NCBI GenBank assembly: GCA_024742835.1
Contig: JANSXS010000009.1
Location: 1 to 64,000, forward strand
Length of the DNA stretch: 64,000 nt
Direction of reading: 5' to 3'
Origin: Paracoccaceae bacterium
GTDB lineage: Bacteria > Pseudomonadota > Alphaproteobacteria > Rhodobacterales > Rhodobacteraceae
In this document: positions 50,524-64,000 of the stretch, in pieces
Numbering within the stretch: the stretch's first letter is position 1
How the letters are laid out: each line of letters opens with the position of its first letter
Position numbers and translations under genes: made by a program
Notes under the pieces: generated by a model
What the model saw: only the letters and a program-made list of their open reading frames with translations
Database searches by the model: none
What the model was told of the DNA's origin: nothing

Positions 50524-51003
50524 CTATTCGTCCAAAGAGCCGTGGATCGCGAATTGTTCCAGCCCGGCATCCTGTGCCTCTATCGTGCGGTAGGTTTCGC
50601 GCACACCCGCTTGGGACAGGTCGCGTGCGACTGTAAGCAGGGTGTTGGGGTTGTGGTCTGCGCACATCTCGGCCATCTGCGCGATCTCTTCGGCGGCAAC
50701 AGGGCGCGCGGCGGCCAGATCCGGCGCACCATAGACATCGACGAAATGTTGGGCCAGCGCGTCTGTCACCTGCGCCATCTCCTTGGTTTCGATCTGCGTG
50801 ACCGCCACGAAGGTCACGCGGCCAAAGGTTTCCAGCCCGAGCCAGCCGTTGGAAAACGCCTGTTTCTGCTTGCCCGTCAGGTCGCCCTCGGTCCAGTTGG
50901 AAAACTCGAACCCGCCCGATATGCACCATTCCCCCGTCCGCGCGGGAGAGTGATACACGCGCGTGTCGCTTTCATCGAAATGGATCGCCCGTGCCAGTTT
51001 CAT
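50524..51003 (-). CDS. DUF6505 family protein
   Basis: A 159-residue protein of unknown function, MKLARAIHFDESDTRVY, with FSNWTEGDLTGKQKQAFSNGW and FGRVTFVAVTQI segments. I associate it with DUF6505. It starts with a 4-base overlap (ATGA) with the upstream ligase-like gene and is the last of a four-gene operon, DUF6494-mrp-ligase-like-DUF6505. That operon lies directly beside the formate dehydrogenase genes, so a role in maturing that enzyme is plausible but unproven. Confidence 0.75.
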   Translation of the reverse strand: MKLARAIHFDESDTRVYHSPARTGEWCISGGFEFSNWTEGDLTGKQKQAFSNGWLGLETFGRVTFVAVTQIETKEMAQVTDALAQHFVDVYGAPDLAAARPVAAEEIAQMAEMCADHNPNTLLTVARDLSQAGVRETYRTIEAQDAGLEQFAIHGSLDE

Positions 51004-51713
51004 GCCGATGTCTCCAATACTGTGCTGAGCGGGATCAGGCGGGTATCGTCGCCGCGCCTGAAGAGCATTCCGAAATGCTCGTCCACGCCCAGAAACGTGC
51101 CGGTTTCCGCGTCTATGTCGATCTCTTCACCGATGCCATGCGCCAGCCCGCGCCATTGCCCGTGCAGCGCGCGCGCGCCGTCCTCGTCCCAGCGGGTGAT
51201 CCAGACCAGCGTATGCCGCGCCCAGGCCTCCAGCAGATCCACGGGATCAACCTCGGCGCAGCCTTCCTCGTAGAGTGCTGTGCGGTCGGGTGTTTCACCG
51301 GGGGCAAGGCCGACCAGCATCAAGGGCAGGTCAAGCCCCACCACAAGCCAGCCGGGCAGCGCGCCAGGATCCGACCCGCCCGCCGCAACCCGCAGCCGAC
51401 CGCAGGCCGCGCCGTTCACGCGCAGCCCGCCCGCCCATTCCAGATGGACCGCCACCTCGGGCGGGGCCAGCGCGCCAAGCGCGTTCTGAAAGCCGATGCC
51501 GCAGGCCGGAAGCATGGCCATCGCCTGTTCCAGCGGCACTTCGGGGGCCATGACCAGCGCCGCCTTCAGCCGGTCGACGCCCGGCGCATAGACGATCAGC
51601 CCCGCGTCACAGCCAAGCGCGGCCATGGCACAGGCCTTTTCGAACGGGTCGATGCCCGCGTCGATGGCGTGGCCGGTCATCAGGGGCGGAAAGGCCGGTG
51701 CGCGCTCTGTCAT
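51000..51713 (-). CDS. Degenerate biotin/lipoate-protein ligase-like protein (DUF4444 type)
   Basis: A 237-residue protein whose fold resembles biotin/lipoate protein ligases, with a C-terminal DUF4444-like domain (about residues 170-235, ending HFGMLFRRGDDTRLIPLSTVL). The N-terminal catalytic core lacks the GRGRxGRxW motif of BirA, and the block equivalent to KWPND...GKKLGGIL reads LEWAGGLRVNGAACGRLRVA, without the catalytic lysine. It is therefore unlikely to make biotinyl- or lipoyl-AMP. The start at 51713 (MTERAPAFP) overlaps the mrp stop by ATGA. Its position with mrp and next to the formate dehydrogenase suggests a cofactor-assembly role; this is inference. Confidence 0.75.
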   Translation of the reverse strand: MTERAPAFPPLMTGHAIDAGIDPFEKACAMAALGCDAGLIVYAPGVDRLKAALVMAPEVPLEQAMAMLPACGIGFQNALGALAPPEVAVHLEWAGGLRVNGAACGRLRVAAGGSDPGALPGWLVVGLDLPLMLVGLAPGETPDRTALYEEGCAEVDPVDLLEAWARHTLVWITRWDEDGARALHGQWRGLAHGIGEEIDIDAETGTFLGVDEHFGMLFRRGDDTRLIPLSTVLETSA

Positions 51714-52774
51714 GCCACGCCGGCCTTTATCAGTTGGCGCGCGACGTCGCGAAACGCCTGCGATTGCGGCGCGTCGGGCTTTGACACCACGATGGGTGCG
51801 CCCCCGTCCGATGCCAGCCGGATGTCGATATGCAGCGGCACTTCGGCCAGCAGGGGCACGCCCAGCTTGGCCGCCTCGGTGGCAACGCCGCCATGGCCGA
51901 ACACATGCTCTTCGTGCCCGCAACTGGAGCAGATATGCGTCGACATGTTCTCGATCATGCCCAGCACCGGCACATGCAGTTGGTTGAACATGTCGATGCC
52001 CTTGCGCGCATCCAGAAGCGCCACGTCCTGTGGCGTGGACACGATCACAGCGCCGTCGACCACGGCCTTTTGCGCCAGTGTCATCTGCACATCGCCGGTG
52101 CCGGGCGGCAGATCGACCAGCAGCACGTCGAGCGCGCCCCATTGCACCTGCATCAGCATCTGTTGCAACGCGCCCATCAGCATCGGACCACGCCAGACAA
52201 CGGCCTGATCCTCGTTCGTCATAAGGCCCATGGACATCATCGTGACGCCGTGGTTGCGCATCGGCAGGATGGTTTTGCCATCCGGGCTGGCGGGGCGGCC
52301 AGAGACGCCCAGCATTCGCGGCTGTGACGGCCCGTAGACATCCGCATCCAGAAGGCCGACGCGGCGGCCCTCGGCGGCCAGCGCGCAGGCAAGGTTGGCG
52401 GATACGGTCGATTTGCCCACGCCGCCCTTGCCGGAGGCGATGGCGATGATGTGATCGACACCCGGCACGCGCTGCGGGCCTTGCTGGGTGGCGGCGGGTT
52501 TGGGTTTGAGATCGGGCGGGGCCTTGGCCTGATGCGCGGTCAGGACAGCCGACACCTCTGTCGCGCCGTCAAGCGCCTGCACCGCCGCATGGGCCGCGTC
52601 GCGCACGGGTTCGTACAGTTTGGCCTTGGCCGGGTCGATCTCCAGTACAAAGCGTACAACCCCGCCTTCGACATTCAGACCGCGTGTCACACCGGCCGTA
52701 ACAATGTCGGACCCGGATACCGGATCGGTGATTGTCTTGAGCGCGTCCAGCACGCTCTCTCGTGTCAGTGCCAC
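51710..52774 (-). CDS. apbC: Mrp/NBP35-type Fe-S cluster carrier ATPase
   Basis: A 354-residue P-loop ATPase that carries and delivers 4Fe-4S clusters. An N-terminal MIP18-like domain (about residues 1-85) is followed by the deviant Walker A IASGKGGVGKSTVS, the Walker A-prime region DADVYGPSQP, the LLVDLPPGTGDVQ block, and the CSSCGHEEHVFG motif near residue 272, whose cysteines bind the shared cluster. The start appears to be GTG at 52774, one base after the DUF6494 stop; AAGGGCGG lies upstream. It overlaps the ligase-like gene downstream. It is likely to serve the Fe-S subunits of the formate dehydrogenase beside it. Confidence 0.9.
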   Translation of the reverse strand: MALTRESVLDALKTITDPVSGSDIVTAGVTRGLNVEGGVVRFVLEIDPAKAKLYEPVRDAAHAAVQALDGATEVSAVLTAHQAKAPPDLKPKPAATQQGPQRVPGVDHIIAIASGKGGVGKSTVSANLACALAAEGRRVGLLDADVYGPSQPRMLGVSGRPASPDGKTILPMRNHGVTMMSMGLMTNEDQAVVWRGPMLMGALQQMLMQVQWGALDVLLVDLPPGTGDVQMTLAQKAVVDGAVIVSTPQDVALLDARKGIDMFNQLHVPVLGMIENMSTHICSSCGHEEHVFGHGGVATEAAKLGVPLLAEVPLHIDIRLASDGGAPIVVSKPDAPQSQAFRDVARQLIKAGVA

Positions 52775-52775
52775 G

Positions 52776-52970
52776 TTATGCGCCGCCCTTGATCTTGCCA
52801 ATGACCTCGTGCTGCACGTCGATGCCGTCGACGGTCAGCGTGACCTTGGCGGTGAATTCCTTGCCCTCGGTATCGGGGGTGTTGCGCATTCCCTCTTCGA
52901 TGGCCTGCTGCGAGGTCACGCCGACCTGCTTGAGGAATTTGCGCATCGACATGTTGAAATCGTCGTTCAT
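52776..52970 (-). CDS. DUF6494 family small protein
   Basis: A 64-residue protein starting MNDDFNMSMRKFLKQVGVTSQQ and ending GKIKGGA. It matches the pattern I associate with DUF6494, a family usually found just upstream of mrp in alphaproteobacteria. It has no membrane helix or motif. GGGAGAGA lies upstream of the start. It is the first gene of the mrp operon. Function unknown. Confidence 0.75.
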   Translation of the reverse strand: MNDDFNMSMRKFLKQVGVTSQQAIEEGMRNTPDTEGKEFTAKVTLTVDGIDVQHEVIGKIKGGA

Positions 52971-53035
52971 CTGTCTCTCCCGTTTGTTGTCGTTCCTGTT
53001 GACGCATGGGGTACGCTGTTTCTAACGTGAATCCC

Positions 53036-53797
53036 ATGCACCGGTTCAATAGATATCTGCAACTTGCGATCCTTGCCATTTCGGGGGCCGGGATGGCCGC
53101 GCCCGCGATGGCAGATGACGTCCGCCTTGCCGCGCCGCCCGCGCTGATCGAGTCGGGCCTGCTCAAGTATGTGCTGCCGCGGTTCTCTCTCAAGACCGGG
53201 ATACGGATCGAGCTCGTCAGCCCCGATGCGGCCGCGCAAATCGTGTTGGCTCCCGATGCGGATGGCCCGCGTGTGTTTACCGGGCCGGATGCCACATGGC
53301 GCATGGGGCTGGCCGCGCCGGACGATGCCGATGCCGCAAGATTTGCCGACTGGCTGCTGTCGGATATCGGACAACGGACAATCACCGCCTATGAACGTGA
53401 CGGGAGCGCACCCTTTTCCCTGCCCGCCAAGGCGGAGATCGAGGTCGCGCCGGTGTCCTATGACGGCGATCCGGTTGCGGGAAAGGCGTTGTCCGTGCTG
53501 CATTGTGCCCGCTGTCACGCGGTCAGCGAGGCCACCCGGATGAATGCCATCGGCTCCAGCCCCAGCTTTTTCGTGCTGCGCGCGATGCGTGACTGGGACA
53601 TGCGGTTTGCCGCCTTCTACGCGCTCAACCCGCATCCCGCCTTCACCCAGATCAAGGATGTCACCCCGCCCTTTCCGATCAACCGCCCGTCGCCCATCGT
53701 CCCGCTTGAGATGACGATAGACGACCTGGACGCGATCCTTGCCTATGTGGCGGGGATGCCCCCCGCCGATCTTGGCGCGCCTATCCGGCATCAGTGA
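53036..53797 (+). CDS. Periplasmic c-type cytochrome with a shortened TupA-like domain
   Basis: A 253-residue protein with a signal peptide (MHRFNRYLQLAILAISGAG, cleavage near AMA-DD). Residues 38-61 (LIESGLLKYVLPRF, KTGIRIELV) match the start of tungstate-binding TupA-type proteins, and 102-129 (RFADWLLSDIGQRTI, YERDGSAPFSLP) match their C-terminal strands; the middle is missing. Residues about 145-250 are a monohaem cytochrome, with CARCH (C157, C160, H161). The TTTS-type ligand motif of TupA is replaced (LAAPPAL), so tungstate binding is doubtful. Start at 53036 is preferred over 53006 because it opens directly with the signal peptide. Its stop overlaps the convergent ferredoxin gene by 7 bases. 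Confidence 0.8.
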   Translation: MHRFNRYLQLAILAISGAGMAAPAMADDVRLAAPPALIESGLLKYVLPRFSLKTGIRIELVSPDAAAQIVLAPDADGPRVFTGPDATWRMGLAAPDDADAARFADWLLSDIGQRTITAYERDGSAPFSLPAKAEIEVAPVSYDGDPVAGKALSVLHCARCHAVSEATRMNAIGSSPSFFVLRAMRDWDMRFAAFYALNPHPAFTQIKDVTPPFPINRPSPIVPLEMTIDDLDAILAYVAGMPPADLGAPIRHQ

Positions 53798-55749
53798 TCC
53801 TTGCGCTTCGAGAAGTAATCCTCGGAGGTGCGCACGCGTGGCTTTTCCCCGCTGGTGAACGGATTGTCCTTTGCTTGGAACTGGGCCTTGACGCGGCAAT
53901 CGTCGCACATCTGGATCATCCGCGCGGCGCTGTCGGTGCCGAACATCGAATGCTTGCCCGCCAGCTTTTCGGTGATCCGCTCGATGGTGGATTTCACCCC
54001 GAACAGTGATCCGCATTCGACGCAGGCGAACGGCTCTTCCTCGTTCAGCACGACCTGGCCCAACGCCTCGTCGCGCAGGTTCATGCGCGGCTCGTAGGTG
54101 ATGGCATCCTCGGGGCAGACATTCGCGCACAGTCCGCATTGCAGGCAGGCGTCTTCCTGAAAGCGCAGTTCCGGCTTGTCGGGGTTTTCCACCAGCGCAC
54201 CCGATGGGCACAGCGACACACAGCTCAGGCAAAGCGTGCAGGCATCGGTATCCACCAGCACCGCACCATAGGGTGCGTCAGAGGGCAGGGGCAGGATATC
54301 GTCCTCGCCGCGCAGCGCGCGCGCGGCCAGCCGCGCCACCTGACGGCGGCTGCCCATCGGCAGAACGGGTGTTTCCAGCGGCGCGGGCGCGGCCTTTGCC
54401 CCGTACAGCGCGTCACACAGCGCATCGGGATCGTTGACATCCAGCAGCCGCAGCTTGTCCGGCCCTGCGATGGCCTCTGCCAGCGGCACTTCGCGGTCAA
54501 GCGCGTCACGCTCTGTCATGGGGGCCAGCAGGATCGTCACATCGGCAAAGCCCGATGCCAGCGCGGCCAGCATCTCCGCATGGCCAAAGGCGGACAGCGC
54601 GGGGATTTCCAGCGGGATCACGTCGGCGGGCAGGCCGCGCGCGTAGCGGGCGGCAAGCGCGATCATCTCTTGCCCGTGGCCCGTGTCGCAGACCAGCAGG
54701 CGGGGCGCATCGCCGCCCGCCTTGCGATAGGTCGAGGCCAGCACCTGTATCCTGCGAAAGATCGTGCCGGGGGCGGGCGCGTCATAGCTGATCGCCCCTG
54801 ACGGGCACAGCGCCGAACACGCGCCGCAGCCCGCGCAGATCATCGGATCGACGGTGACATGATCGCCATCCGGCATGATCGCGCCCGTGGGGCAGACATC
54901 CAGACAATTGGTGCAGCCGATTTTCGAGGCGCGCGAATGGGCGCAAAGCAGCGGTTCCGTCTTGACGTAAAGCGGCTTCTCAAACGTGCCCACCATCTGG
55001 CTGGCCTCGAACACCGCGTCGGCCACCGCCGGGATGCTGCCAGGATCGGCGCGCAGGTAGCCTTCGCGCTTTTGCGGGGCGGGAAACAGCGGCGTGCCGC
55101 CCGTCAGGTCAAGAATGATATCGCATTCGGTGAGCGCGCCGTCCTTGGGTGCGGTCCATTGCAGGGGGCCGCGACCCGCCGGGTCGATCTGTTGCAACCC
55201 GTCGATGCGCAGGCTGAACCCCCCGAGCGCGCCGTCCGCGCGTTTCAGATCCCCTCGGATCACGTCATAGGTGCGGGTATCGGGCGGGTCGCTGGCATCG
55301 GTGATAAGCACCGTTACGCCCAGCACGTCTTTCAGACGCTCGGCCGCGGCAAGCGCGACATCGCCCGCGCCAAGTATCAGGCACAGCCCCTCGGAGATTA
55401 CGTCAAGCGTCTTGCCGCCGGGCACCTGCATCGCGGCCTCGGCCATGAGCGCGGCCATTTTCGGCTGTGTCGAGCGCGAATCATCCGTCCAACCGGCGCG
55501 ATCGCGCAGGTCGGTCAGGGGCGGTGCGGGCTGGTCCAGCTCGGCGGCCAGATCCTCGAAGAAGCGGTGCTCCTGCCGACAGCAAATCAGCGCGTCGCCT
55601 TCTGCGATGGCGGCGGCGGCCTGATCGCCCTGGGTGGTGCAAAGGGCGGAATGCACCGCGCTGCACCGCAGGCCCGTGGCCTGTTCCAGACCTGCCTTGT
55701 CGATGTCTTGTGTGCCAGAACAGTTGCACAATATCAATTGTTTAGCCAT
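53791..55749 (-). CDS. Large multi-cluster 4Fe-4S ferredoxin-like protein of the formate dehydrogenase island
   Basis: A 652-residue cytosolic protein with four 4Fe-4S motifs in two pairs: residues 279-316 (CTNCLDVCPTG and CAGCGACSALCPSG) and 504-546 (CTLCLSCVSLCPSG and CLQCGLCANVCPED). A further set near the C-terminus, C576, C579, C615 and C618 as two CxxC pairs, could bind zinc or iron. The N-terminal 250 residues are unusual, with CNCSGTQD and an ICCRQEHRFFE segment and an NAD-like LILGAGDVAL. The protein is typical of the alphaproteobacterial formate dehydrogenase neighbourhood. It lacks a signal peptide. An electron-transfer or maturation role is inferred. Confidence 0.85.
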   Translation of the reverse strand: MAKQLILCNCSGTQDIDKAGLEQATGLRCSAVHSALCTTQGDQAAAAIAEGDALICCRQEHRFFEDLAAELDQPAPPLTDLRDRAGWTDDSRSTQPKMAALMAEAAMQVPGGKTLDVISEGLCLILGAGDVALAAAERLKDVLGVTVLITDASDPPDTRTYDVIRGDLKRADGALGGFSLRIDGLQQIDPAGRGPLQWTAPKDGALTECDIILDLTGGTPLFPAPQKREGYLRADPGSIPAVADAVFEASQMVGTFEKPLYVKTEPLLCAHSRASKIGCTNCLDVCPTGAIMPDGDHVTVDPMICAGCGACSALCPSGAISYDAPAPGTIFRRIQVLASTYRKAGGDAPRLLVCDTGHGQEMIALAARYARGLPADVIPLEIPALSAFGHAEMLAALASGFADVTILLAPMTERDALDREVPLAEAIAGPDKLRLLDVNDPDALCDALYGAKAAPAPLETPVLPMGSRRQVARLAARALRGEDDILPLPSDAPYGAVLVDTDACTLCLSCVSLCPSGALVENPDKPELRFQEDACLQCGLCANVCPEDAITYEPRMNLRDEALGQVVLNEEEPFACVECGSLFGVKSTIERITEKLAGKHSMFGTDSAARMIQMCDDCRVKAQFQAKDNPFTSGEKPRVRTSEDYFSKRKDH

Positions 55750-56092: not shown

Positions 56093-56662
56093 ATGATCCA
56101 CAATCCGGACATGTACGCCACGATGCCAATCGGGATCGTGATGCGTCGCACACCAGGCGTCACACGATGGGCGGCATGGGCATGGCGTGCCGTGGCTGTG
56201 CTGCCCGGTGCGGCACCGGCCGATTGGCGTGTGCTGCGCGAGGATGGCGAAACCATCGAGTATCACGCCGACACGCTGACGCTGGAACTGCACGGGGCCG
56301 AGACGGAAGCCTATCTCCATGGCCTGTCGTCGCGGACCCCGTCCATATACGTGGTGCTGCGCAACGAGCGCTCGGGCGATTGCCCGCTTGAGGCGGTCCT
56401 TGTCACCGCGTCCCCCTACGAGGCGCAGGATTATGCCGATAACGGCGAGGATATCGTCGAGAAAGTGCCGATGCCCGACGGGCTGGTTGCGTGGGTGCGG
56501 GACTTTGCGCTGGCGTATCACAGCGAAGAGGAATTCAAGAAGCGCCGCCGCGACCGGGTCGATGTGGAGCGCAAGGAAGACGGGATCGGTGATCCGCGCA
56601 TCCGACAGACACGGGACGTGTTCCGCTCGCCCTCTGTGGCAAGAAAGGAGCGTCTGCAATGA
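56093..56662 (+). CDS. DUF3305 domain protein
   Basis: A 189-residue protein of the DUF3305 family, regularly found beside molybdenum/tungsten formate dehydrogenases in proteobacteria. The core is MYATMPIGIVMRRTPGVTRWAAWAWRAVAVLPGA near the N-terminus, then a beta-rich region with PSIYVVLR. The start at 56093 follows GGGAGAAGAGA; the open frame upstream is not supported. It overlaps DUF3306 by ATGA. A chaperone or assembly function for the dehydrogenase is likely from context but not proven. Confidence 0.88.
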   Translation: MIHNPDMYATMPIGIVMRRTPGVTRWAAWAWRAVAVLPGAAPADWRVLREDGETIEYHADTLTLELHGAETEAYLHGLSSRTPSIYVVLRNERSGDCPLEAVLVTASPYEAQDYADNGEDIVEKVPMPDGLVAWVRDFALAYHSEEEFKKRRRDRVDVERKEDGIGDPRIRQTRDVFRSPSVARKERLQ

Positions 56663-57318
56663 GCCGCAGTGCCGATTTCTGGTCCCGCCGCAAAGCGCAG
56701 GTCGAAGCCGAAGAGCGCGCCGAGGCCGAGGCGCAGGAGGCCGCGCATCTGGCCGCGCGCGACGAGGCGCTCCAGGAAAAGACCGACGAAGAGATCCTGG
56801 AAGATCTGGGCCTGCCCGATCCGGACACGCTGGAACAAGGCGCGGATTTCAAGGCTTTCATGGCCAAGGCCGTGCCCGAGCGTATCCGCCGCCGGGCGCT
56901 GCGCCGGCTTTGGCTGTCCAACCCGGCGCTGGCCAATCTGGACGGGTTGCTGGATTACGGCGAGGATTTTACCAACAAAGCGACCGTGATTGAGAACATG
57001 CAAACCGCCTACCAGGTGGGCAAGGGCATGACCGCCCATGTCGAGGAGCTGGCCCGGCAGGAAACCGCGCGCGAGGCGGGCGAGGATCCGTTCGCCGCGC
57101 CACCCCGTTCCGCGCCCGACGAGGCGCCTGAAGACAGCGACGAGACGCCAGATATCGCCGAAGCAGAGGGCGATGGCGTGGATGACACCGCCGCGCCGGA
57201 GCCGCTTGCCGCAGTGCAGGATGACCCCGTTGCGTCGCAAGACGATCTGGCCGATGATGCGACACCCCGCCGCAGGATGCGCTTTGCCTTCGACGACCAC
57301 GCAGGGGGCGCGGCATGA
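56659..57318 (+). CDS. DUF3306 domain protein
   Basis: A 219-residue protein of DUF3306: MSRSADFWSRRKAQVEAEERAEAEA opens with a charged helix, followed by the diagnostic PDPDTLEQGADFKAFMAKAVPERIRRRALRRLWLSNPALANLDGL-type stretch (residues 52-96) and YGEDFTNK. The C-terminal third is acidic and low-complexity, ending with basic RRRMRF. It always accompanies DUF3305 and formate dehydrogenase. It overlaps both neighbours by ATGA. Confidence 0.9.
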   Translation: MSRSADFWSRRKAQVEAEERAEAEAQEAAHLAARDEALQEKTDEEILEDLGLPDPDTLEQGADFKAFMAKAVPERIRRRALRRLWLSNPALANLDGLLDYGEDFTNKATVIENMQTAYQVGKGMTAHVEELARQETAREAGEDPFAAPPRSAPDEAPEDSDETPDIAEAEGDGVDDTAAPEPLAAVQDDPVASQDDLADDATPRRRMRFAFDDHAGGAA

Positions 57319-57956
57319 CCAAGCATGAGGGACGCATGAGCACCACCGAGGCCACTTACACAATTGCCGCCGAAGACCGACTGCGGGCTGATCTTTACGA
57401 TTTCCTCGGCCTGCTTCTGGCCACGCCGCCGGGCGAGCCGCTGTTGAAGCAGACCGCCAGCCTGACCGGCGATGACGACACCGATCTGGGCACCGCCGTC
57501 GCGGCCCTGTCGCGCATCGCCCGGCACAGCCGCCCCGAAGCGGTGGAACGCGAATTCAACGCGCTGTTTATCGGGTTGGGCCGGGGGGAGTTGCTGCCCT
57601 ACGCCAGCTATTACCTGACCGGGTTTCTCAATGAAAAGCCGCTGGCCACGCTGCGCCGCGACATGGCTGCACGCGGCATGACCCGCGCGCCGAATGTCTA
57701 CGAGCCCGAAGACAACATCGCCTCTTTGATGGAGATGATGGCAGGCCTGATCACGGGCCGGTTCGGCAAGCCCGCGTCGCTCGCCGATCAGAAAACGTTC
57801 TTCAACAAGCATATCGGCCCCTGGGCCGGACATTTCTACACGGATTTGGAGGCCGCGAAGAACTCGGTTTTCTATGCCTCGGTCGGCGCTGTCGGCCGGG
57901 TGTTCATGGAGATCGAGGCAGAAGGTTTCCGGATGAGCGCGGAGCGATCCGCATGA
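57315..57956 (+). CDS. TorD-like molecular chaperone for a molybdoenzyme
   Basis: A 213-residue all-helical protein of the TorD/DmsD family of system-specific chaperones for Tat-exported molybdoproteins. The characteristic EFNALFIGLGRGELLPYASYYLTG segment is at residues 78-101. It should bind the twin-arginine signal of FdhA during cofactor insertion. It overlaps DUF3306 by ATGA, though an in-frame ATG seven codons on is possible. It is placed just upstream of the Tat-signalled dehydrogenase genes, as expected. Confidence 0.9.
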   Translation: MTKHEGRMSTTEATYTIAAEDRLRADLYDFLGLLLATPPGEPLLKQTASLTGDDDTDLGTAVAALSRIARHSRPEAVEREFNALFIGLGRGELLPYASYYLTGFLNEKPLATLRRDMAARGMTRAPNVYEPEDNIASLMEMMAGLITGRFGKPASLADQKTFFNKHIGPWAGHFYTDLEAAKNSVFYASVGAVGRVFMEIEAEGFRMSAERSA

Positions 57957-57999: not shown

Positions 58000-58188
58000 A
58001 TGAGCCAGAAAACCGAAGGCAGCAGCCGTCGCGATTTTCTCAAACTGGCCGCGACCGGCGCGCCCGCTGTCGCGGTTGCAACCATTGCGACCACCGGCAC
58101 GGCCGAAGCCGCAGCCCCCGACCTGACATCCGAAAAGATGCAGGATACCGCGCATACCCGCGCCTATTTCGACAGCGCCCGCTTTTAA
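58000..58188 (+). CDS. Formate dehydrogenase region Tat-target microprotein
   Basis: A 62-residue protein consisting almost only of a twin-arginine signal: MSQKTEGSSRRDFLKLAATGAP, an alanine-rich stretch, and a short tail ending TRAYFDSARF. It matches the family described as TIGR02811, small Tat targets found next to formate dehydrogenase genes. The start follows GAGAGGAGGAC at 57985-57995. It may be a membrane-anchored or periplasmic accessory of the enzyme, or a decoy substrate for the TorD-like chaperone. Its function is unknown. Confidence 0.88.
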   Translation: MSQKTEGSSRRDFLKLAATGAPAVAVATIATTGTAEAAAPDLTSEKMQDTAHTRAYFDSARF

Positions 58189-58309: not shown

Positions 58310-61207
58310 ATGCTTAGGAAAAAGACCAACGGGGTTGCGAAACGCCCCCAGCGGACAAGTATCCTGTCCGAGGTCGCCGGATCTTCCGTCGACCGCCGCG
58401 CGTTCCTGCGTGGCTCCGGCCTGGCCATCGGTGGCCTTGCCGCAATCGGCGCAATGGGCGGCACCGTCACCCGCGCCAACGCTCAGACCGCCGCGACGCA
58501 GGCGGTTCAGACAATCAAGTCGGTCTGCACACACTGTTCCGTCGGCTGCACGGTCGTTGCCGAAGTCAGCAATGGTGTCTGGACGGGGCAGGAGCCCGGC
58601 TGGGACAGCCCGTTCAACCTTGGAGCGCATTGCGCCAAGGGTGCCGCGGTGCGCGAGCACGCCCATGGCGAACGCCGGCTCAAGTACCCGATGAAGAAAG
58701 AGGGCGGCGAGTGGAAGCGGATCAGCTGGGAACAGGCGATCAACGAGATCGGCGACGGGATGCTGAACATCCGCGAGGAAAGCGGACCGGATTCCGTATA
58801 CTGGCTGGGAAGCGCCAAGCATAACAACGAACAGGCCTATCTGTTCCGCAAGTTCGCCGCGTACTGGGGCACGAACAACGTGGATCACCAGGCCCGGATC
58901 TGTCATTCGACCACCGTGGCGGGCGTTGCGAATACATGGGGCTACGGCGCCATGACCAATTCGTATAACGATATCCACAATTCCAAGGCCATCTTCATCA
59001 TCGGCGGCAACCCCGCCGAGGCGCACCCGGTCAGCCTGTTGCACGTGCTCAAGGCCAAGGAGCAGAACAACGCGCCGATGATCGTCTGCGACCCGCGCTT
59101 TACCCGCACGGCCGCTCATGCCGATGAATATGTCCGGTTCCGTCCCGGTTCTGACGTGGCGCTGGTCTGGGGTATCTTGTGGCACATCTTCGAGAATGGC
59201 TGGGAAGACAAGGAATTCATCCGCACCCGTGTCTGGGGCATGGACCAGATCAAGGCAGAAGTCGCCAAGTGGACCCCCGAAGAGGTCGAGCGCGTCACCG
59301 GCGCGCCGGGTGAACAGCTTCGCCGCGTCGCGCGCACGCTGGCCAACAACCGTCCGGGCACCGTGATCTGGTGCATGGGGGGCACCCAGCACACCAACGG
59401 CAACAACAACACGCGTGCCTATTGCGTGCTTCAGCTTGCCCTTGGCAACATGGGCGTGTCGGGTGGCGGCACCAACATCTTCCGCGGCCATGACAATGTT
59501 CAAGGTGCCACGGACCTTGGTGTTCTCAGCCACACGCTGCCGGGCTATTACGGCCTGTCGGCGGGCGCATGGGCGCATTGGGCGCGTGTCTGGGGCGAAG
59601 ATCCCGAATGGCTCGCCGGCAATTTCGACAGCATCACCGGCAAGGACGGCAAGGAGAAATCTCTGCAAAACCTCAAGGGGATTCCCGTCAGCCGCTGGAT
59701 CGACGGCGTACTGGAAGACGAAGCCAACATGGATCAGCCCGCAAAGGTGCGTGCCATGGTGCTTTGGGGCCACGCGCCCAACTCCCAGACCCGCATGACC
59801 GAGATGAAGACGGCGATGGAAAAGCTCGACATGCTTGTCGTGATCGATCCGTTCCCGACCGTCTCGGCGGTTCTGCATGACCGCACCGATGGCTGTTACC
59901 TTCTGCCCGCGACCACGCAGTTCGAGACACACGGCTCGGTCACGGCGTCTAACCGGTCTATCCAGTGGCGCGAAAAGGTGATGGACCCGCTCTTTGAATC
60001 AAAGACGGATCACGAGATCATCGGCCTTTTCTCGAAGAAGTTCGGGTTTCACGACCGGATTTTCCGCAATATCGGCATCGAGGCCGATGGCGTGACCCCC
60101 AATATCGAGGACACGACCCGCGAATTCAACAGCGGCATGTGGACCATCGGCTACACGGGTCAGTCGCCCGAGCGTCTGAAACTGCACATGGCCAATCAGC
60201 ACACGTTTGACAAGACGACGTTGAAGGCTGTGGGCGGACCGGCGGATGGCGACTATTACGGTTTGCCATGGCCAAGCTGGGGCACGCCCGAGATGAACCA
60301 TCCGGGCACGCCGAACCTGTACGACATGTCCAAGCCGGTGGCCGATGGTGGCCTGACCTTCCGCGCGCGTTTCGGCGTCGAGCGGGATGGCGACAACCTG
60401 CTGGCCGAGGGCGTGTATTCCAAAGGGTCGGAGATTCAGGACGGCTATCCGGAATTCACCATGCAGATGCTGATGGATCTGGGCTGGGACGGCGATCTGA
60501 CCGCAGAGGAACGCGCCGCGATCGACGCCATTGCCGGGCCGAACACCAACTGGAAGACCGACCTGTCGGGCGGCATCCAGCGGGTGGCCATCAAGCATGG
60601 CTGTGCACCCTTCGGCAACGCCAAGGCGCGGGCCGTGGTATGGACCTTCCCCGATCCGGTGCCGGTACACCGCGAGCCGCTTTATACCAACCGGTATGAT
60701 CTGGTCGCGGATTACCCAACCTACGAGGACCGTCACGACTATCGTCTTCCCACCTTGTATGCGTCGATCCAGAAGAACGACTTTTCCAAGGATTTCCCGA
60801 TCATCCTGACCTCGGGACGTCTTGTGGAATACGAGGGCGGCGGCGACGAGACACGGTCGAACCCGTGGCTTGCCGAGCTTCAGCAGGACATGTTCGTGGA
60901 GATGAACCCGCGCGATGCCAACAATCTTGGTGTGCGGGACGGTGAGCAGGTCTGGGTCGAAGGGCCCGAAGGCGGCAAGGTGAAGGTCATGGCGATGGTC
61001 ACCAACCGGGTGGGCGAGGGCGTTGCCTTCATGCCGTTCCACTTTGGCGGCCATTACCAGGGCGAGGACCAGCGGAGCAAGTATCCCGATGGCGCCGACC
61101 CCTATGTGCTGGGTGAATCCACGAACACCGCCCAGACCTATGGCTACGATTCCGTAACCCAGATGCAGGAGACGAAGGCGACTCTCTGCAAAATCAGCGC
61201 AGCTTAA
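58310..61207 (+). CDS. fdhA: Formate dehydrogenase, catalytic alpha subunit
   Basis: A 965-residue molybdopterin oxidoreductase exported by the Tat pathway (DRRAFLRGSGL at residues 28-38). A 4Fe-4S cluster site follows, C73-x2-C76-x3-C80-x27-C108. The metal ligand is C198 in QARICHSTTV, so the enzyme is the cysteine, not selenocysteine, type. The large bis-MGD domains include FIIGGNPAEAHPV near residue 224 and the C-terminal pterin-binding region with WLAELQQDMFVEMNP. It oxidises formate to CO2 in the periplasm and passes electrons to FdhB. The metal may be molybdenum or tungsten. AGGGAGGAGAGAC precedes the start. Confidence 0.95.
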   Translation: MLRKKTNGVAKRPQRTSILSEVAGSSVDRRAFLRGSGLAIGGLAAIGAMGGTVTRANAQTAATQAVQTIKSVCTHCSVGCTVVAEVSNGVWTGQEPGWDSPFNLGAHCAKGAAVREHAHGERRLKYPMKKEGGEWKRISWEQAINEIGDGMLNIREESGPDSVYWLGSAKHNNEQAYLFRKFAAYWGTNNVDHQARICHSTTVAGVANTWGYGAMTNSYNDIHNSKAIFIIGGNPAEAHPVSLLHVLKAKEQNNAPMIVCDPRFTRTAAHADEYVRFRPGSDVALVWGILWHIFENGWEDKEFIRTRVWGMDQIKAEVAKWTPEEVERVTGAPGEQLRRVARTLANNRPGTVIWCMGGTQHTNGNNNTRAYCVLQLALGNMGVSGGGTNIFRGHDNVQGATDLGVLSHTLPGYYGLSAGAWAHWARVWGEDPEWLAGNFDSITGKDGKEKSLQNLKGIPVSRWIDGVLEDEANMDQPAKVRAMVLWGHAPNSQTRMTEMKTAMEKLDMLVVIDPFPTVSAVLHDRTDGCYLLPATTQFETHGSVTASNRSIQWREKVMDPLFESKTDHEIIGLFSKKFGFHDRIFRNIGIEADGVTPNIEDTTREFNSGMWTIGYTGQSPERLKLHMANQHTFDKTTLKAVGGPADGDYYGLPWPSWGTPEMNHPGTPNLYDMSKPVADGGLTFRARFGVERDGDNLLAEGVYSKGSEIQDGYPEFTMQMLMDLGWDGDLTAEERAAIDAIAGPNTNWKTDLSGGIQRVAIKHGCAPFGNAKARAVVWTFPDPVPVHREPLYTNRYDLVADYPTYEDRHDYRLPTLYASIQKNDFSKDFPIILTSGRLVEYEGGGDETRSNPWLAELQQDMFVEMNPRDANNLGVRDGEQVWVEGPEGGKVKVMAMVTNRVGEGVAFMPFHFGGHYQGEDQRSKYPDGADPYVLGESTNTAQTYGYDSVTQMQETKATLCKISAA

Positions 61208-61220
61208 GGAGATATGGGAT

Positions 61221-61814
61221 ATGGCAAGAGCTAAATTCCTCTGTGACGCCGAACGCTGCATCGAATGCAACGCCTGCGTGACCGCTTGCAAGAACGAGCA
61301 TGAGGTGCCTTGGGGCATCAACCGCCGCCGCGTGGTGACCATCGAGGATGGCAACCCCGGCGAACGCTCGATCTCGGTGGCGTGTATGCATTGTTCCGAT
61401 GCGCCCTGCATGGCGGTCTGTCCGGTAGATTGTTTCTACCAGAACGAGGAGGGCGTCGTCCTTCACTCGAAAGACCTTTGCATCGGCTGTGGTTATTGCT
61501 TTTACGCGTGCCCGTTCGGCGCGCCGCAATTCCCGCAGGCCGGCAACTTCGGCAGCCGTGGCAAGATGGACAAATGCACCTTCTGTGCCGGTGGCCCCGA
61601 AGAAAACAACAGCCAGGCAGAGTTCCAGAAGTACGGACGCAACCGGATCGCGGAAGGCAAGCTGCCGATCTGCGCCGAGATGTGCTCGACCAAGGCGCTT
61701 CTGGCCGGGGACGGGGACATCGTCGCGAATATCTATCGCGAGCGTGTTGTCTCCCGTGGCTTCGGCTCTGGCGCGTGGGGCTGGGGCACAGCCTACGAAC
61801 AGAAGGGCGGCTGA
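61221..61814 (+). CDS. fdhB: Formate dehydrogenase iron-sulfur beta subunit
   Basis: A 197-residue electron-transfer subunit with 16 cysteines for four 4Fe-4S clusters: C13/16/19/23, C55/58/63/67, C87/90/93/97 and C119/122/151/155. It takes electrons from FdhA and delivers them to the cytochrome b subunit. There is no signal peptide, so it is probably exported together with FdhA by the Tat pathway. It is shorter than the E. coli FdnH and lacks its C-terminal membrane anchor. AAGGAGATAT precedes the start. A REP-like hairpin follows. Confidence 0.95.
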   Translation: MARAKFLCDAERCIECNACVTACKNEHEVPWGINRRRVVTIEDGNPGERSISVACMHCSDAPCMAVCPVDCFYQNEEGVVLHSKDLCIGCGYCFYACPFGAPQFPQAGNFGSRGKMDKCTFCAGGPEENNSQAEFQKYGRNRIAEGKLPICAEMCSTKALLAGDGDIVANIYRERVVSRGFGSGAWGWGTAYEQKGG

Positions 61815-61924: not shown

Positions 61925-63139
61925 ATGGCGCGCATTCTGCTTACCATTGCACTTTTGTTCAGCCTTGCCCTGCCCGGCATGGCGCAAGACGTCGATGCAC
62001 CTGCATCCGGCGCGACCGATCCGCGCGCGGCAACCGGGGGCGCGCAGACGCTTGACGATATCCTTGCCCGACAGCGTGGCGAAGAAGTGCCGAGCCGCGA
62101 GCGCTCGGAAGACCCTGACAGCGCCGGGGCCATGGCCGGGCAGCTTGGGTCGCTGGGCGGGTCGTCTGACTCGGAGGTCTGGAGCGCGCTGCGTTTCGGC
62201 ACCGCCGACGTGACCGTGTCCGCCGGTGGCGCGCCCGCCCGCGTCCTGATCCAGGATCGTGGCATGTGGTGGCTGGAATTTCGCGAAGGCCCGCTGACCA
62301 CCTATGGTGGCTGGCTGTTGCTGGGCACGCTTGCGCTATTGGCGATATTCTACGTGATCCGGGGCCGCATCACCATCGACGGGCGTAAAACCGGCCGCAC
62401 AGTCACGCGCTTCGGCGCCGCCGAACGCTTTACCCATTGGCTCATGGCGGGTTCTTTCATCCTGTTGGGGATCACCGGTCTTCTGGTTCTGATGGGGCGG
62501 CAATTCATCATTCCAACGTTCGGGCACGAGGCTTTCTCGACCGTTGCCATCGGCTCCAAGTGGATCCACAACAATGTGTCCTGGGCCTTCATGCTGGGGA
62601 TCATTCTGTCCTTCTTTTTCTGGATCAGCCACAACATCCCCAACAAGACGGACCTGAAATGGCTGGCTGTTGGCGGTGGAATCTTCAAGAAGGGGGTTCA
62701 CCCGCCCGCCAAGAAATTCAACGCCGGGCAAAAGGTGATCTTCTGGTCGGTCATCCTGCTGGGCGGTTCGATCTCGGTGTCGGGGTTGTCACTGCTCTTT
62801 CCGTTCGAAATGCCGATGTTCGCCAAGACCTTTGCGATCCTGAACGAGACGGGTCTGCCGCAGACGCTTGGCTTTGGCGCGTTGCCAACGCAGCTTGCGC
62901 CGCATGAAGAGATGCAATTCGCGCAGCTTTGGCACTCCATTGTCAGCTTTGTGCTCATGGCGATCATCATCGCGCATATCTATATCGGCTCTGTCGGTAT
63001 GGAGGGGGCCTATGACGCCATGGGGTCCGGCGAGGTAGAGGAGCAATGGGCGCGCGAGCACCAGTCGCTGTGGCTTGAAGAGCTGGAGGAAGAGGGCAAG
63101 CTGCCCGATACGTCCAAGGCGGCGACACCTGCGGAATGA
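61925..63139 (+). CDS. Formate dehydrogenase gamma subunit (cytochrome b556)
   Basis: A 404-residue membrane subunit. It has a signal peptide (MARILLTIALLFSLALPGMA), a periplasmic domain of about 105 residues, and five hydrophobic segments at roughly 128-146, 171-190, 217-235, 270-292 and 336-355. Candidate haem ligands are H171, H215, H337 and H351. It would take electrons from FdhB and reduce quinone. It is much longer than the 217-residue FdnI of E. coli, owing to the N-terminal exported domain, a form common in alphaproteobacteria. No strong ribosome binding site is visible. The next gene starts one base after its stop. Confidence 0.92.
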   Translation: MARILLTIALLFSLALPGMAQDVDAPASGATDPRAATGGAQTLDDILARQRGEEVPSRERSEDPDSAGAMAGQLGSLGGSSDSEVWSALRFGTADVTVSAGGAPARVLIQDRGMWWLEFREGPLTTYGGWLLLGTLALLAIFYVIRGRITIDGRKTGRTVTRFGAAERFTHWLMAGSFILLGITGLLVLMGRQFIIPTFGHEAFSTVAIGSKWIHNNVSWAFMLGIILSFFFWISHNIPNKTDLKWLAVGGGIFKKGVHPPAKKFNAGQKVIFWSVILLGGSISVSGLSLLFPFEMPMFAKTFAILNETGLPQTLGFGALPTQLAPHEEMQFAQLWHSIVSFVLMAIIIAHIYIGSVGMEGAYDAMGSGEVEEQWAREHQSLWLEELEEEGKLPDTSKAATPAE

Positions 63140-63140
63140 C

Positions 63141-64000
63141 ATGCGCGCGCCGCTGACATGTCTGTTGGCCGGTCTGGCCGTGGCGGCACTGCCCGCCGCG
63201 GCACAGGAGTTTACGACGCTCAAGGGACATGGGGGGCCGGTCATGGGGCTGGATGTGCATGAGGGGACGGGCCGCGTCGCCACCGCCAGTTTCGACAATT
63301 CCGTGGGACTTTGGGAGGCAGGCCGCCCGCGCTGGCTTGAGGCGCACGAGGCGGCGGTGACCACGGTCCGGTTCCTCGATGCCGACACGGCCATGTCCGG
63401 CGGCGACGATTTCGCCGTGGTGCTCTGGTCGCTGGATACCGGGCTGGCGACCCGGCTGGAAGGACATCAGGGCAAGGTGGCGCAGCTTGCGCCGTCGCCG
63501 GACGGACAGACCATCGCTTCGGCCAGTTGGGATGGGTCTATCGGCTTGTGGCCTCGAACAGGCGGCACCCCGGTATTCTTGCGCGGCCATGCTGCCGGGG
63601 TCAGTGATCTGGCTTATGCGGCGGACGGTGGGCGGCTTTATTCCGCCTCGGCGGACGGGACGATCCGGGTCTGGAACCCCGAGCAGCCCGACACGGGGGC
63701 GCGCGTGATTGTCGATCAGGGGTTCGGCGTCAACCGGCTGATCCTGCCGCGGGATGAAACATGGCTGGCTTACGGGGCTGTCGATGGCGTGACTCGGGTT
63801 GTGGACCCGGTGACCGGCGAGACGCTGCGGGATTTCTCGCTGGACCGGCGGCCGGTGCTGGCGATGGCCCATCACGAGGCAACGGGGCAATTGGCCGTTG
63901 GCGACGGGGATGGCTATATCATGATGATCGACACGGCGACCTGGCGCATCACGCGCGATTTCCGCGCCATGGCGCAGGGTCCGGTCTGGGCGCTGGATTT
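63141..64000 (+). CDS. Exported WD40-repeat protein (3' truncated by window edge)
   Basis: The window ends inside this gene; 286 codons are seen. It starts MRAPLTCLLAGLAVAALPAAA, a signal peptide, followed by WD40-like repeats: LKGHGGPV...DNSVGLW, LEGHQGKV...DGSIGLW, LRGHAAGV...DGTIRVW, with two or more weaker ones. In related alphaproteobacterial clusters such proteins carry a c-type cytochrome domain at the C-terminus, but that part lies beyond the window, so it is not shown here. It begins one base after the gamma-subunit stop and is clearly part of the formate dehydrogenase operon. A periplasmic scaffold or electron-transfer partner is the likely role. Confidence 0.88.
   Translation, partial: MRAPLTCLLAGLAVAALPAAAQEFTTLKGHGGPVMGLDVHEGTGRVATASFDNSVGLWEAGRPRWLEAHEAAVTTVRFLDADTAMSGGDDFAVVLWSLDTGLATRLEGHQGKVAQLAPSPDGQTIASASWDGSIGLWPRTGGTPVFLRGHAAGVSDLAYAADGGRLYSASADGTIRVWNPEQPDTGARVIVDQGFGVNRLILPRDETWLAYGAVDGVTRVVDPVTGETLRDFSLDRRPVLAMAHHEATGQLAVGDGDGYIMMIDTATWRITRDFRAMAQGPVWALD

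Follow-up and report, generated by a model that had tools for sequence, protein, structure and literature searches.

The window (the whole stretch of DNA that was analysed, 64,000 nucleotides) carries a gene for a cytochrome c of 253 amino acids, in which a variable linker joins an N-terminal domain corresponding to one lobe of the tungstate-binding protein TupA to a cytochrome c domain. The open reading frame and its translation bore out the position and the two domains of the original prediction, including its monohaem cytochrome, whose CXXCH motif lies at residues 157-161. An alternative in-frame ATG is found upstream, at 53006; we prefer 53036 as the start because the signal peptide is cleaner than from 53006. 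The gene has the following features.

53036..53797, plus strand: TupA-lobe cytochrome c gene, product predicted to be exported, 253 aa (open reading frame, family-wide homologues)
53036..53113, plus strand: signal peptide, residues 1-26, cleavage after AMA (by eye)
53114..53431, plus strand: N-terminal domain (residues 27-132, approximately), comprising lobe A of TupA and lacking lobe B
53180..53194, plus strand: R49...K53 on helix 1 of the N-terminal domain (conservation count)
53465..53794, plus strand: cytochrome c domain, residues 144-253 (Pfam Cytochrom_C below gathering, plus conservation)
53504..53518, plus strand: haem-binding CARCH, residues 157-161 (C, R, C and H each in 105/105)
53633..53635, plus strand: His200 of NPHPAF, sole invariant candidate sixth haem ligand (conservation)

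Conservation was counted over 105 fused sequences, namely 109 orthologue reading frames minus five removed by a length filter (the domain-less L044 and L045, L056 at a contig end, and L048 and L050 with misjudged starts) plus the window protein. Pfam Cytochrom_C matched the window protein with an E value of 0.0078 and 17.9 bits, short of the gathering score of 21.3, and matched 18 of 27 family members at E ≤ 0.01. All 105 fused sequences carry CXXCH, and the PH dipeptide containing His200 is present in all 119 cytochrome sequences. No methionine is invariant: position 226 is L in 46, M in 31, I in 18 and V in 10 of the fused sequences, and the commonest methionine, M169 (73/105), lies 8 residues after CXXCH and is unlikely to be a haem ligand. 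Five of the 119 sequences have no methionine after CXXCH, and in six a methionine lies within 5 residues after PH. The haem is thus predicted from the sequences to have no methionine ligand and to be either His/His or five-coordinate, and for that reason to be of low potential. A class I c-type cytochrome in the sample (L158, 164 aa, NPHPxMPxF) shares the CXXCH, the NPHP motif and the C-terminal helix; in contrast to it, the TupA-lobe cytochrome appears not to have kept the axial methionine, has about 18 residues inserted after NPHP and ends in a DLGAP-like C-terminal tail. In two divergent fused members, L041 and L043, the NPHP motif reads RPHL and SPHL.

Genes of the formate dehydrogenase island

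The surrounding genes were identified as listed below.

50524-51701, minus strand: DUF6505 gene and biotin/lipoate-ligase-like gene (BPL_LplA_LipB_2 plus DUF4444), after Mrp (Pfam)
51710..52801, minus strand: Mrp/ApbC-type iron-sulfur carrier ATPase (profile match, synteny)
52776..52970, minus strand: DUF6494 gene, 64 aa, divergent neighbour beside Mrp (Pfam, synteny)
53791..55749, minus strand: 652-aa multi-4Fe-4S protein of the formate dehydrogenase (FDH) island (profile match, synteny)
56093..56662, plus strand: DUF3305 protein (name from the annotated Sagittula island, start by eye)
56659..57318, plus strand: DUF3306 protein (profile match)
57336..57956, plus strand: TorD/NarJ-type chaperone (profile match)
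58000..58188, plus strand: small twin-arginine-signal protein (start by eye, annotated at the same place in Sagittula)
58310..61207, plus strand: formate dehydrogenase alpha subunit, FdhA (profile match, twin-arginine leader by eye)
61221..61814, plus strand: formate dehydrogenase FDH3 beta subunit, FdhB (344.9 bits, cut-off 240)
61925..63139, plus strand: formate dehydrogenase gamma subunit, cytochrome b, FdhC (129.9 bits, cut-off 115.85)
63141-64000, plus strand, incomplete at the window end: WD40-repeat protein, immediately following FdhC

We compared 110 loci, the window and 109 fetched ones with flanks of about 7 kb, some of them shorter. The order Mrp, DUF6494, cytochrome, 4Fe-4S protein, DUF3305, DUF3306, TorD, FdhA recurs among them. 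The 4Fe-4S gene, DUF3305 and DUF3306 were each found in 106 loci, TorD in 104, FdhA in 103, Mrp in 101 and DUF6494 in 94. Four loci lack the 4Fe-4S gene: L042 and L056 end with their contigs, and L044 and L045 hold a domain-less cytochrome away from the island. FdhA was missing from L044 and L045 and from loci whose contig or fetched stretch stops too early. Together with the FdhB of the window, which passes the FDH3 cut-off, these counts place the gene in a formate dehydrogenase island, as had been proposed. The 3′ ends of the cytochrome gene and the 4Fe-4S gene overlap by 7 bases; the two genes are convergent, and thus the cytochrome is not transcribed with this neighbour. DUF6494 may have a part in Fe-S delivery.

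In Sagittula stellata E-37 this island is plasmid-borne, and its cytochrome is annotated as 'hypothetical protein'; among five plasmid records with a homologue, four use that name and one 'c-type cytochrome'. The DUF6505/ligase-like pair also occurs in the Sagittula plasmid island.

TupA was found in 41 loci and TupB in 39. The TupA count is 41 rather than 42 because the match in L116 is the cytochrome's own N-terminal domain, and no TupA was found in the fetched flank of the remaining 69 loci (flanks of about 7 kb, some shorter). In the genome of the window the tup genes lie on a contig other than that of the cytochrome (TupA is L002, contig C55), with the permease and ATPase named by their position next to tupA. 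The TupA proteins of the fetched loci mostly carry TTSF, and a few TTST (L002 of this genome, L037, L073 and L125); the TTSF genes often precede the cytochrome by about 3.3 kb, and their products are 44-53% identical to the TupA of this genome.

The genes after FdhB were compared in 10 hand-picked loci with the cytochrome and 10 without it. An FdhC-like gene was present in 10/10 and 9/10, respectively, so that a replacement of FdhC by the TupA-lobe cytochrome is unsupported; the exception, L212, shows no FDH gene in the fetched stretch. A WD40-cytochrome c gene follows FdhC in 7/10 loci with the cytochrome and in 4/10 without it. In relatives of this WD40 protein (e.g., L197, L199 and L203), the C-terminal part is a cytochrome c domain that contains a Met motif, for example PGSKMPMQ. 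Judging from the sequences of these relatives, the FDH3 island would encode two cytochrome fusions, the WD40 protein being the second. In L202 and L205, FdhC is merely 29-33% identical to that of the window, while FdhA and FdhB are 84-94% identical; their FdhC is perhaps an exchanged cytochrome b subunit.

A single lobe of TupA

The TupA resemblance of the N-terminal domain, as read from sequence comparisons, is weak from the single sequence and strong from the family. The best PDB match of the window protein was 3muq, called a TupA in PMC5517513: phmmer aligned residues 26-82 with its N terminus (E 5.8e-4) and residues 100-119 with its C terminus, the second piece not being significant alone. 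The NCBIfam TupA model matched the window protein alone with an E value of 0.11 and 11.9 bits, below its cut-off of 400 bits; this cut-off is uninformative alone because the complete TupA of the same genome scores only 223.9. At E ≤ 0.01 the model matched 4 of 27 family members, with a best E value of 1.8e-6, and Pfam SBP_bac_11 was matched by two of the 27.

A profile of the N-terminal domain alone, built from the 105 fused sequences, was searched against the 4877 open reading frames of at least 100 aa in loci L001-L140. At E ≤ 10 it returned 150 matches, comprising 108 cytochromes, 42 TupA proteins and nothing else. In all 42 TupA proteins both an N-terminal and a C-terminal stretch were matched (residues 22-65 and 233-268 in the TupA of the same genome), some of the N-terminal stretches being weak when scored singly. 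Against the 42 TupA proteins the real profile scored 15.2-54 bits, and none of thirty column-shuffled controls exceeded 7.1 bits. Profile-profile alignment with hhalign gave a probability of 98.6 globally and of 96.0 and 95.4 for two local pieces.

A model built from six sequences (mean pLDDT 65.6 and pTM 0.51 overall) was good over precursor residues 27-126 or so, whereas its cytochrome half was poor; a single-sequence AF2 model of the N-terminal domain was poor (mean pLDDT 51.9) and was set aside. In the fold comparison, lobe A of TupA ranked best and other binding proteins, including ModA, came next. Foldseek alone was weak, with a best E value of 1.3e-3 and none below 0.001. Because the background of the profile search holds few other solute-binding families, the greater closeness to TupA than to ModA rests on the NCBIfam matches (4/27) and the fold ranking. 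The weak NCBIfam score of the single sequence would fit a chance resemblance; the specificity of the profile, the shuffled controls and the fold match refute it and leave it a negligible probability. We conclude that the N-terminal half of the cytochrome is one lobe, lobe A, of TupA.

According to PMC5517513, which gives the lobe boundaries and ligand residues of TupA, lobe B comprises TupA residues 91-200. In the profile alignment only 24 columns of the fused family face 167 residues in the TupA of the same genome, and the stretch that holds the lobe-B ligand residues R118, T124 and D170 has no counterpart in the fused protein. The model of the domain covers one lobe, and not the two lobes around a cleft that characterize TupA. 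TTS was found in the loop region of none of the 105 fused sequences, as against 41 of the 42 TupA proteins. Thus, the fused protein has lost lobe B and with it half of the oxyanion site, and another sequence stands where lobe A of TupA has its TTTS loop. The original prediction of a shrunken TupA domain that matches both ends of TupA and lacks its middle and its ligand loop agrees with these results on each point; the absence of a binding-protein fold, named there as a refuting outcome, did not occur, since lobe A of TupA was recovered. The boundary of the excision is drawn less sharply by the alignments: the roughly 24 middle columns could match strand 3 and the hinge of TupA or, in the second local hhalign alignment, the last strand of lobe B.

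Intermediates with a full-length TupA joined to the cytochrome were considered in G244 and G168, where matches were split; L037 and L038 turned out to be merely about 26-28 residues longer than the window protein. By length, a full TupA domain fits in none of the 109 orthologue reading frames save L048 and L050, in both of which the start was misjudged and the short domain can be seen.

Compared with TupA (5my5, 3muq; L002), with which it shares the sequence of both ends and the fold of lobe A, the fused protein is further distinguished by its cytochrome and by basic residues on helix 1. R49 is present in 105/105 and K53 in 104/105 fused sequences. None of 41 TupA proteins has R at the place of R49 (E 14, A 11, Q 8, I 4, K 2, G 1, M 1), and at the place of K53 they have D or E in 37, K in 3 and A in 1. 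This change bears on the idea that lobe A recognises the permease TupB and that the redox state of the cytochrome gates tungstate import during formate oxidation. The derivation of the lobe from TupA and the presence of TupA and TupB near the cytochrome in 41 and 39 of the 110 loci speak for such docking; however, the acidic helix-1 position of TupA has become lysine in nearly all fused proteins and in 69 loci the fetched flank is without TupA, and we consider this role quite unlikely.

The N-terminal domain is under purifying selection. Its dN/dS values were 0.12-0.40, compared with 0.13-0.27 for the cytochrome domain, in the six usable of seven pairs more than 66% identical, one pair being saturated. 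Its lower conservation (mean pair identity 0.39, compared with 0.54 for the cytochrome) and the occurrence of a domain-less version in the same slot in L161 would suit a functionless, decaying relic attached to a cytochrome that alone matters. Against this reading, which is distinctly improbable, stand the dN/dS values, the retention of G41, P48, R49, F50, K53, W106 and G112 in 104-105 of the 105 fused sequences, and that of the domain itself in 103 of the 105 family genomes with the gene. The purifying selection and the R49/K53 pair are more readily reconciled with a functional interaction module than with a relic in decay, and lend good support in form to the earlier suspicion of a repurposed relic.

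Distribution and relatives of the fused cytochrome

The 295 genomes of the family were searched for the cytochrome (cut-off E below 1e-20) and for the island's 4Fe-4S gene (cut-off E up to 1e-60): both occur in 103 genomes, just the cytochrome in 2, just the 4Fe-4S gene in 34 and neither in 156; the cytochrome recurs in about a hundred genera. G004 and G054, counted among the 103, carry a domain-less cytochrome on a contig separate from that of the 4Fe-4S gene. Both genomes with the cytochrome alone, G008 and G102, are fragmented assemblies in which the contig breaks off inside the gene or shortly behind it; a whole-genome search found no 4Fe-4S gene in either. We inspected the slot of the cytochrome in 20 of the 34 loci without it, hand-picked and mostly with better 4Fe-4S matches. 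In 19 the slot was closed up, with no match to the cytochrome domain and 16-259 bases to the next neighbour; in the remaining one, L195, no neighbour was found. As the slot is closed up in 19 of the 20 islands inspected, the cytochrome is accessory, and was lost or not gained several times.

Wider samples comprised 385 genomes of the class and 398 of the phylum. Ten of the 398 matched at E ≤ 1e-9, all from the same class or closer; weak matches of the class scan (E above 1e-12), which among the matches listed covered parts of the query only, were not counted. In other alphaproteobacterial families, cytochromes homologous in the haem domain and lacking the TupA-derived domain occur near FDH-island genes (L161, L162, L163, L164, L166, L168 and L171), with L161 holding a 144-aa domain-less version in the identical slot. 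Three more domain-less cytochromes have no FDH-island gene in the fetched stretch (L165, L167 and L172). A further family contributed two genomes with the fused form. Its gene in L169 is separated from the 4Fe-4S gene by about 3 kb; in L170 (genome G579) its neighbours are Mrp and DUF6494, and a different contig carries the 4Fe-4S gene.

A tree of 119 cytochrome domains (115 columns) had few supported forks and three changes of state, and a single fused clade was not rejected (p-AU 0.657). The likeliest history is that a standalone FDH cytochrome gained a piece of tupA once, probably when a tupA nearby was duplicated in part. In L161 and L175, where the tree cannot tell gain from loss, the domain may have been lost.

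The arrangement of the genes also raises the question of whether the cytochrome belongs functionally to the Mrp/DUF6494 unit or to some other pathway, its position next to the FDH genes being incidental. Its gene points away from DUF6494-Mrp and towards the 4Fe-4S gene, Mrp and DUF6494 accompany it in 101 and 94 of the 110 loci, and L170 has both in a genome whose 4Fe-4S gene is elsewhere. However, the standalone cytochromes of L164, L168 and L171 lie near FDH-island genes with no Mrp in the fetched stretch, and only the two fragmented genomes with contig ends, of 105, have the cytochrome with no island gene. Such a partnership is therefore rather improbable.

Candidate roles beside FDH3

The nearest precedent, by analogy, is XoxGJ, in which the binding protein XoxJ is joined to a cytochrome c and which accepts electrons from the methanol dehydrogenase XoxF; PQQ insertion and binding to the methanol dehydrogenase have been proposed for XoxJ (PMC8170126, PMC8498564 and PMC8779874). 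The TupA-lobe cytochrome resembles XoxGJ, or cytochrome cGJ of Methylacidiphilum, in kind, as a cytochrome c, likewise periplasmic by prediction, with a binding-protein-like domain, here one lobe only, next to a metal dehydrogenase. It is set apart from XoxGJ, by the published description of the latter, by the formate rather than methanol dehydrogenase and by the TupA lobe in place of XoxJ. The original prediction had known of no described protein of this architecture. For fusions of cytochrome c with periplasmic binding proteins in general, this did not stand, given XoxGJ; for the TupA-lobe cytochrome it did, in that no description was found in titles and abstract openings of the open-access literature. 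Thus, cytochrome-binding-protein fusions are known, and the single surviving lobe is new here.

By the same analogy, we tentatively favour a role of the protein as a periplasmic redox partner of FDH3, with the single TupA lobe reused for docking and no longer binding tungstate. The signal peptide would direct export to the periplasm, where the haem, predicted to be of low potential and either His/His or five-coordinate, might take electrons from the Fe-S chain of FDH3 or hand them to an alternative carrier, in parallel with the transfer to quinone by way of FdhC. The remaining lobe would serve as a protein-protein docking and positioning module, possibly through the new basic face on helix 1 (R49, K53), and would have been added once to a cytochrome that was first a standalone member of the island.

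FDH3 seems not to need the cytochrome, because 34 of the 137 genomes with the island gene are without it, the slot is closed in 19/20 of these islands inspected and FdhC is kept in 9 of the 10 cytochrome-less islands compared. Several further observations count against a partnership with FDH3. A second haem protein, the WD40-cytochrome c, is present in 11 of the 20 islands compared and would be a competing acceptor; the fused gene of G579 sits with Mrp and DUF6494 away from the 4Fe-4S gene, and the domain-less cytochromes of G004 and G054 lie away from the island gene. In addition, lysine occurs at the place of K53 in 3/41 TupA proteins, the cytochrome half of the model is poor, and the tup genes of this genome are on another contig.

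Alternatively, the protein might be a maturation factor, in which the lobe binds FDH3 and the haem keeps the redox state of a thiol or cofactor right during assembly. Its fusion partner is of a class like XoxJ, with its proposed PQQ insertion, and genes for a chaperone and an Fe-S carrier are among the neighbours. An FDH with a twin-arginine leader is loaded with its cofactor in the cytoplasm, while the cytochrome has a signal peptide; it is, moreover, absent from 34/137 genomes with the island gene, and we regard a maturation role as unlikely. Highly improbable, beyond these, is an arrangement in which the Met-less cytochrome is tied by a one-lobe, ligand-less adaptor to both FDH and tungstate import, such that one molecule would sense metal supply and the redox state of the enzyme.

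The N-terminal domain provides a clear case of a transport binding protein that lost a whole lobe and its ligand loop and has been kept under selection inside an electron-transfer protein. For a widespread group of marine bacteria, the role favoured here offers a concrete candidate partner for FDH3, a type of enzyme of interest for CO2/formate interconversion. Taken with XoxGJ, the protein suggests that binding-protein folds may have been taken up repeatedly as adaptors that link cytochromes to metal dehydrogenases, an idea that can be tested directly.
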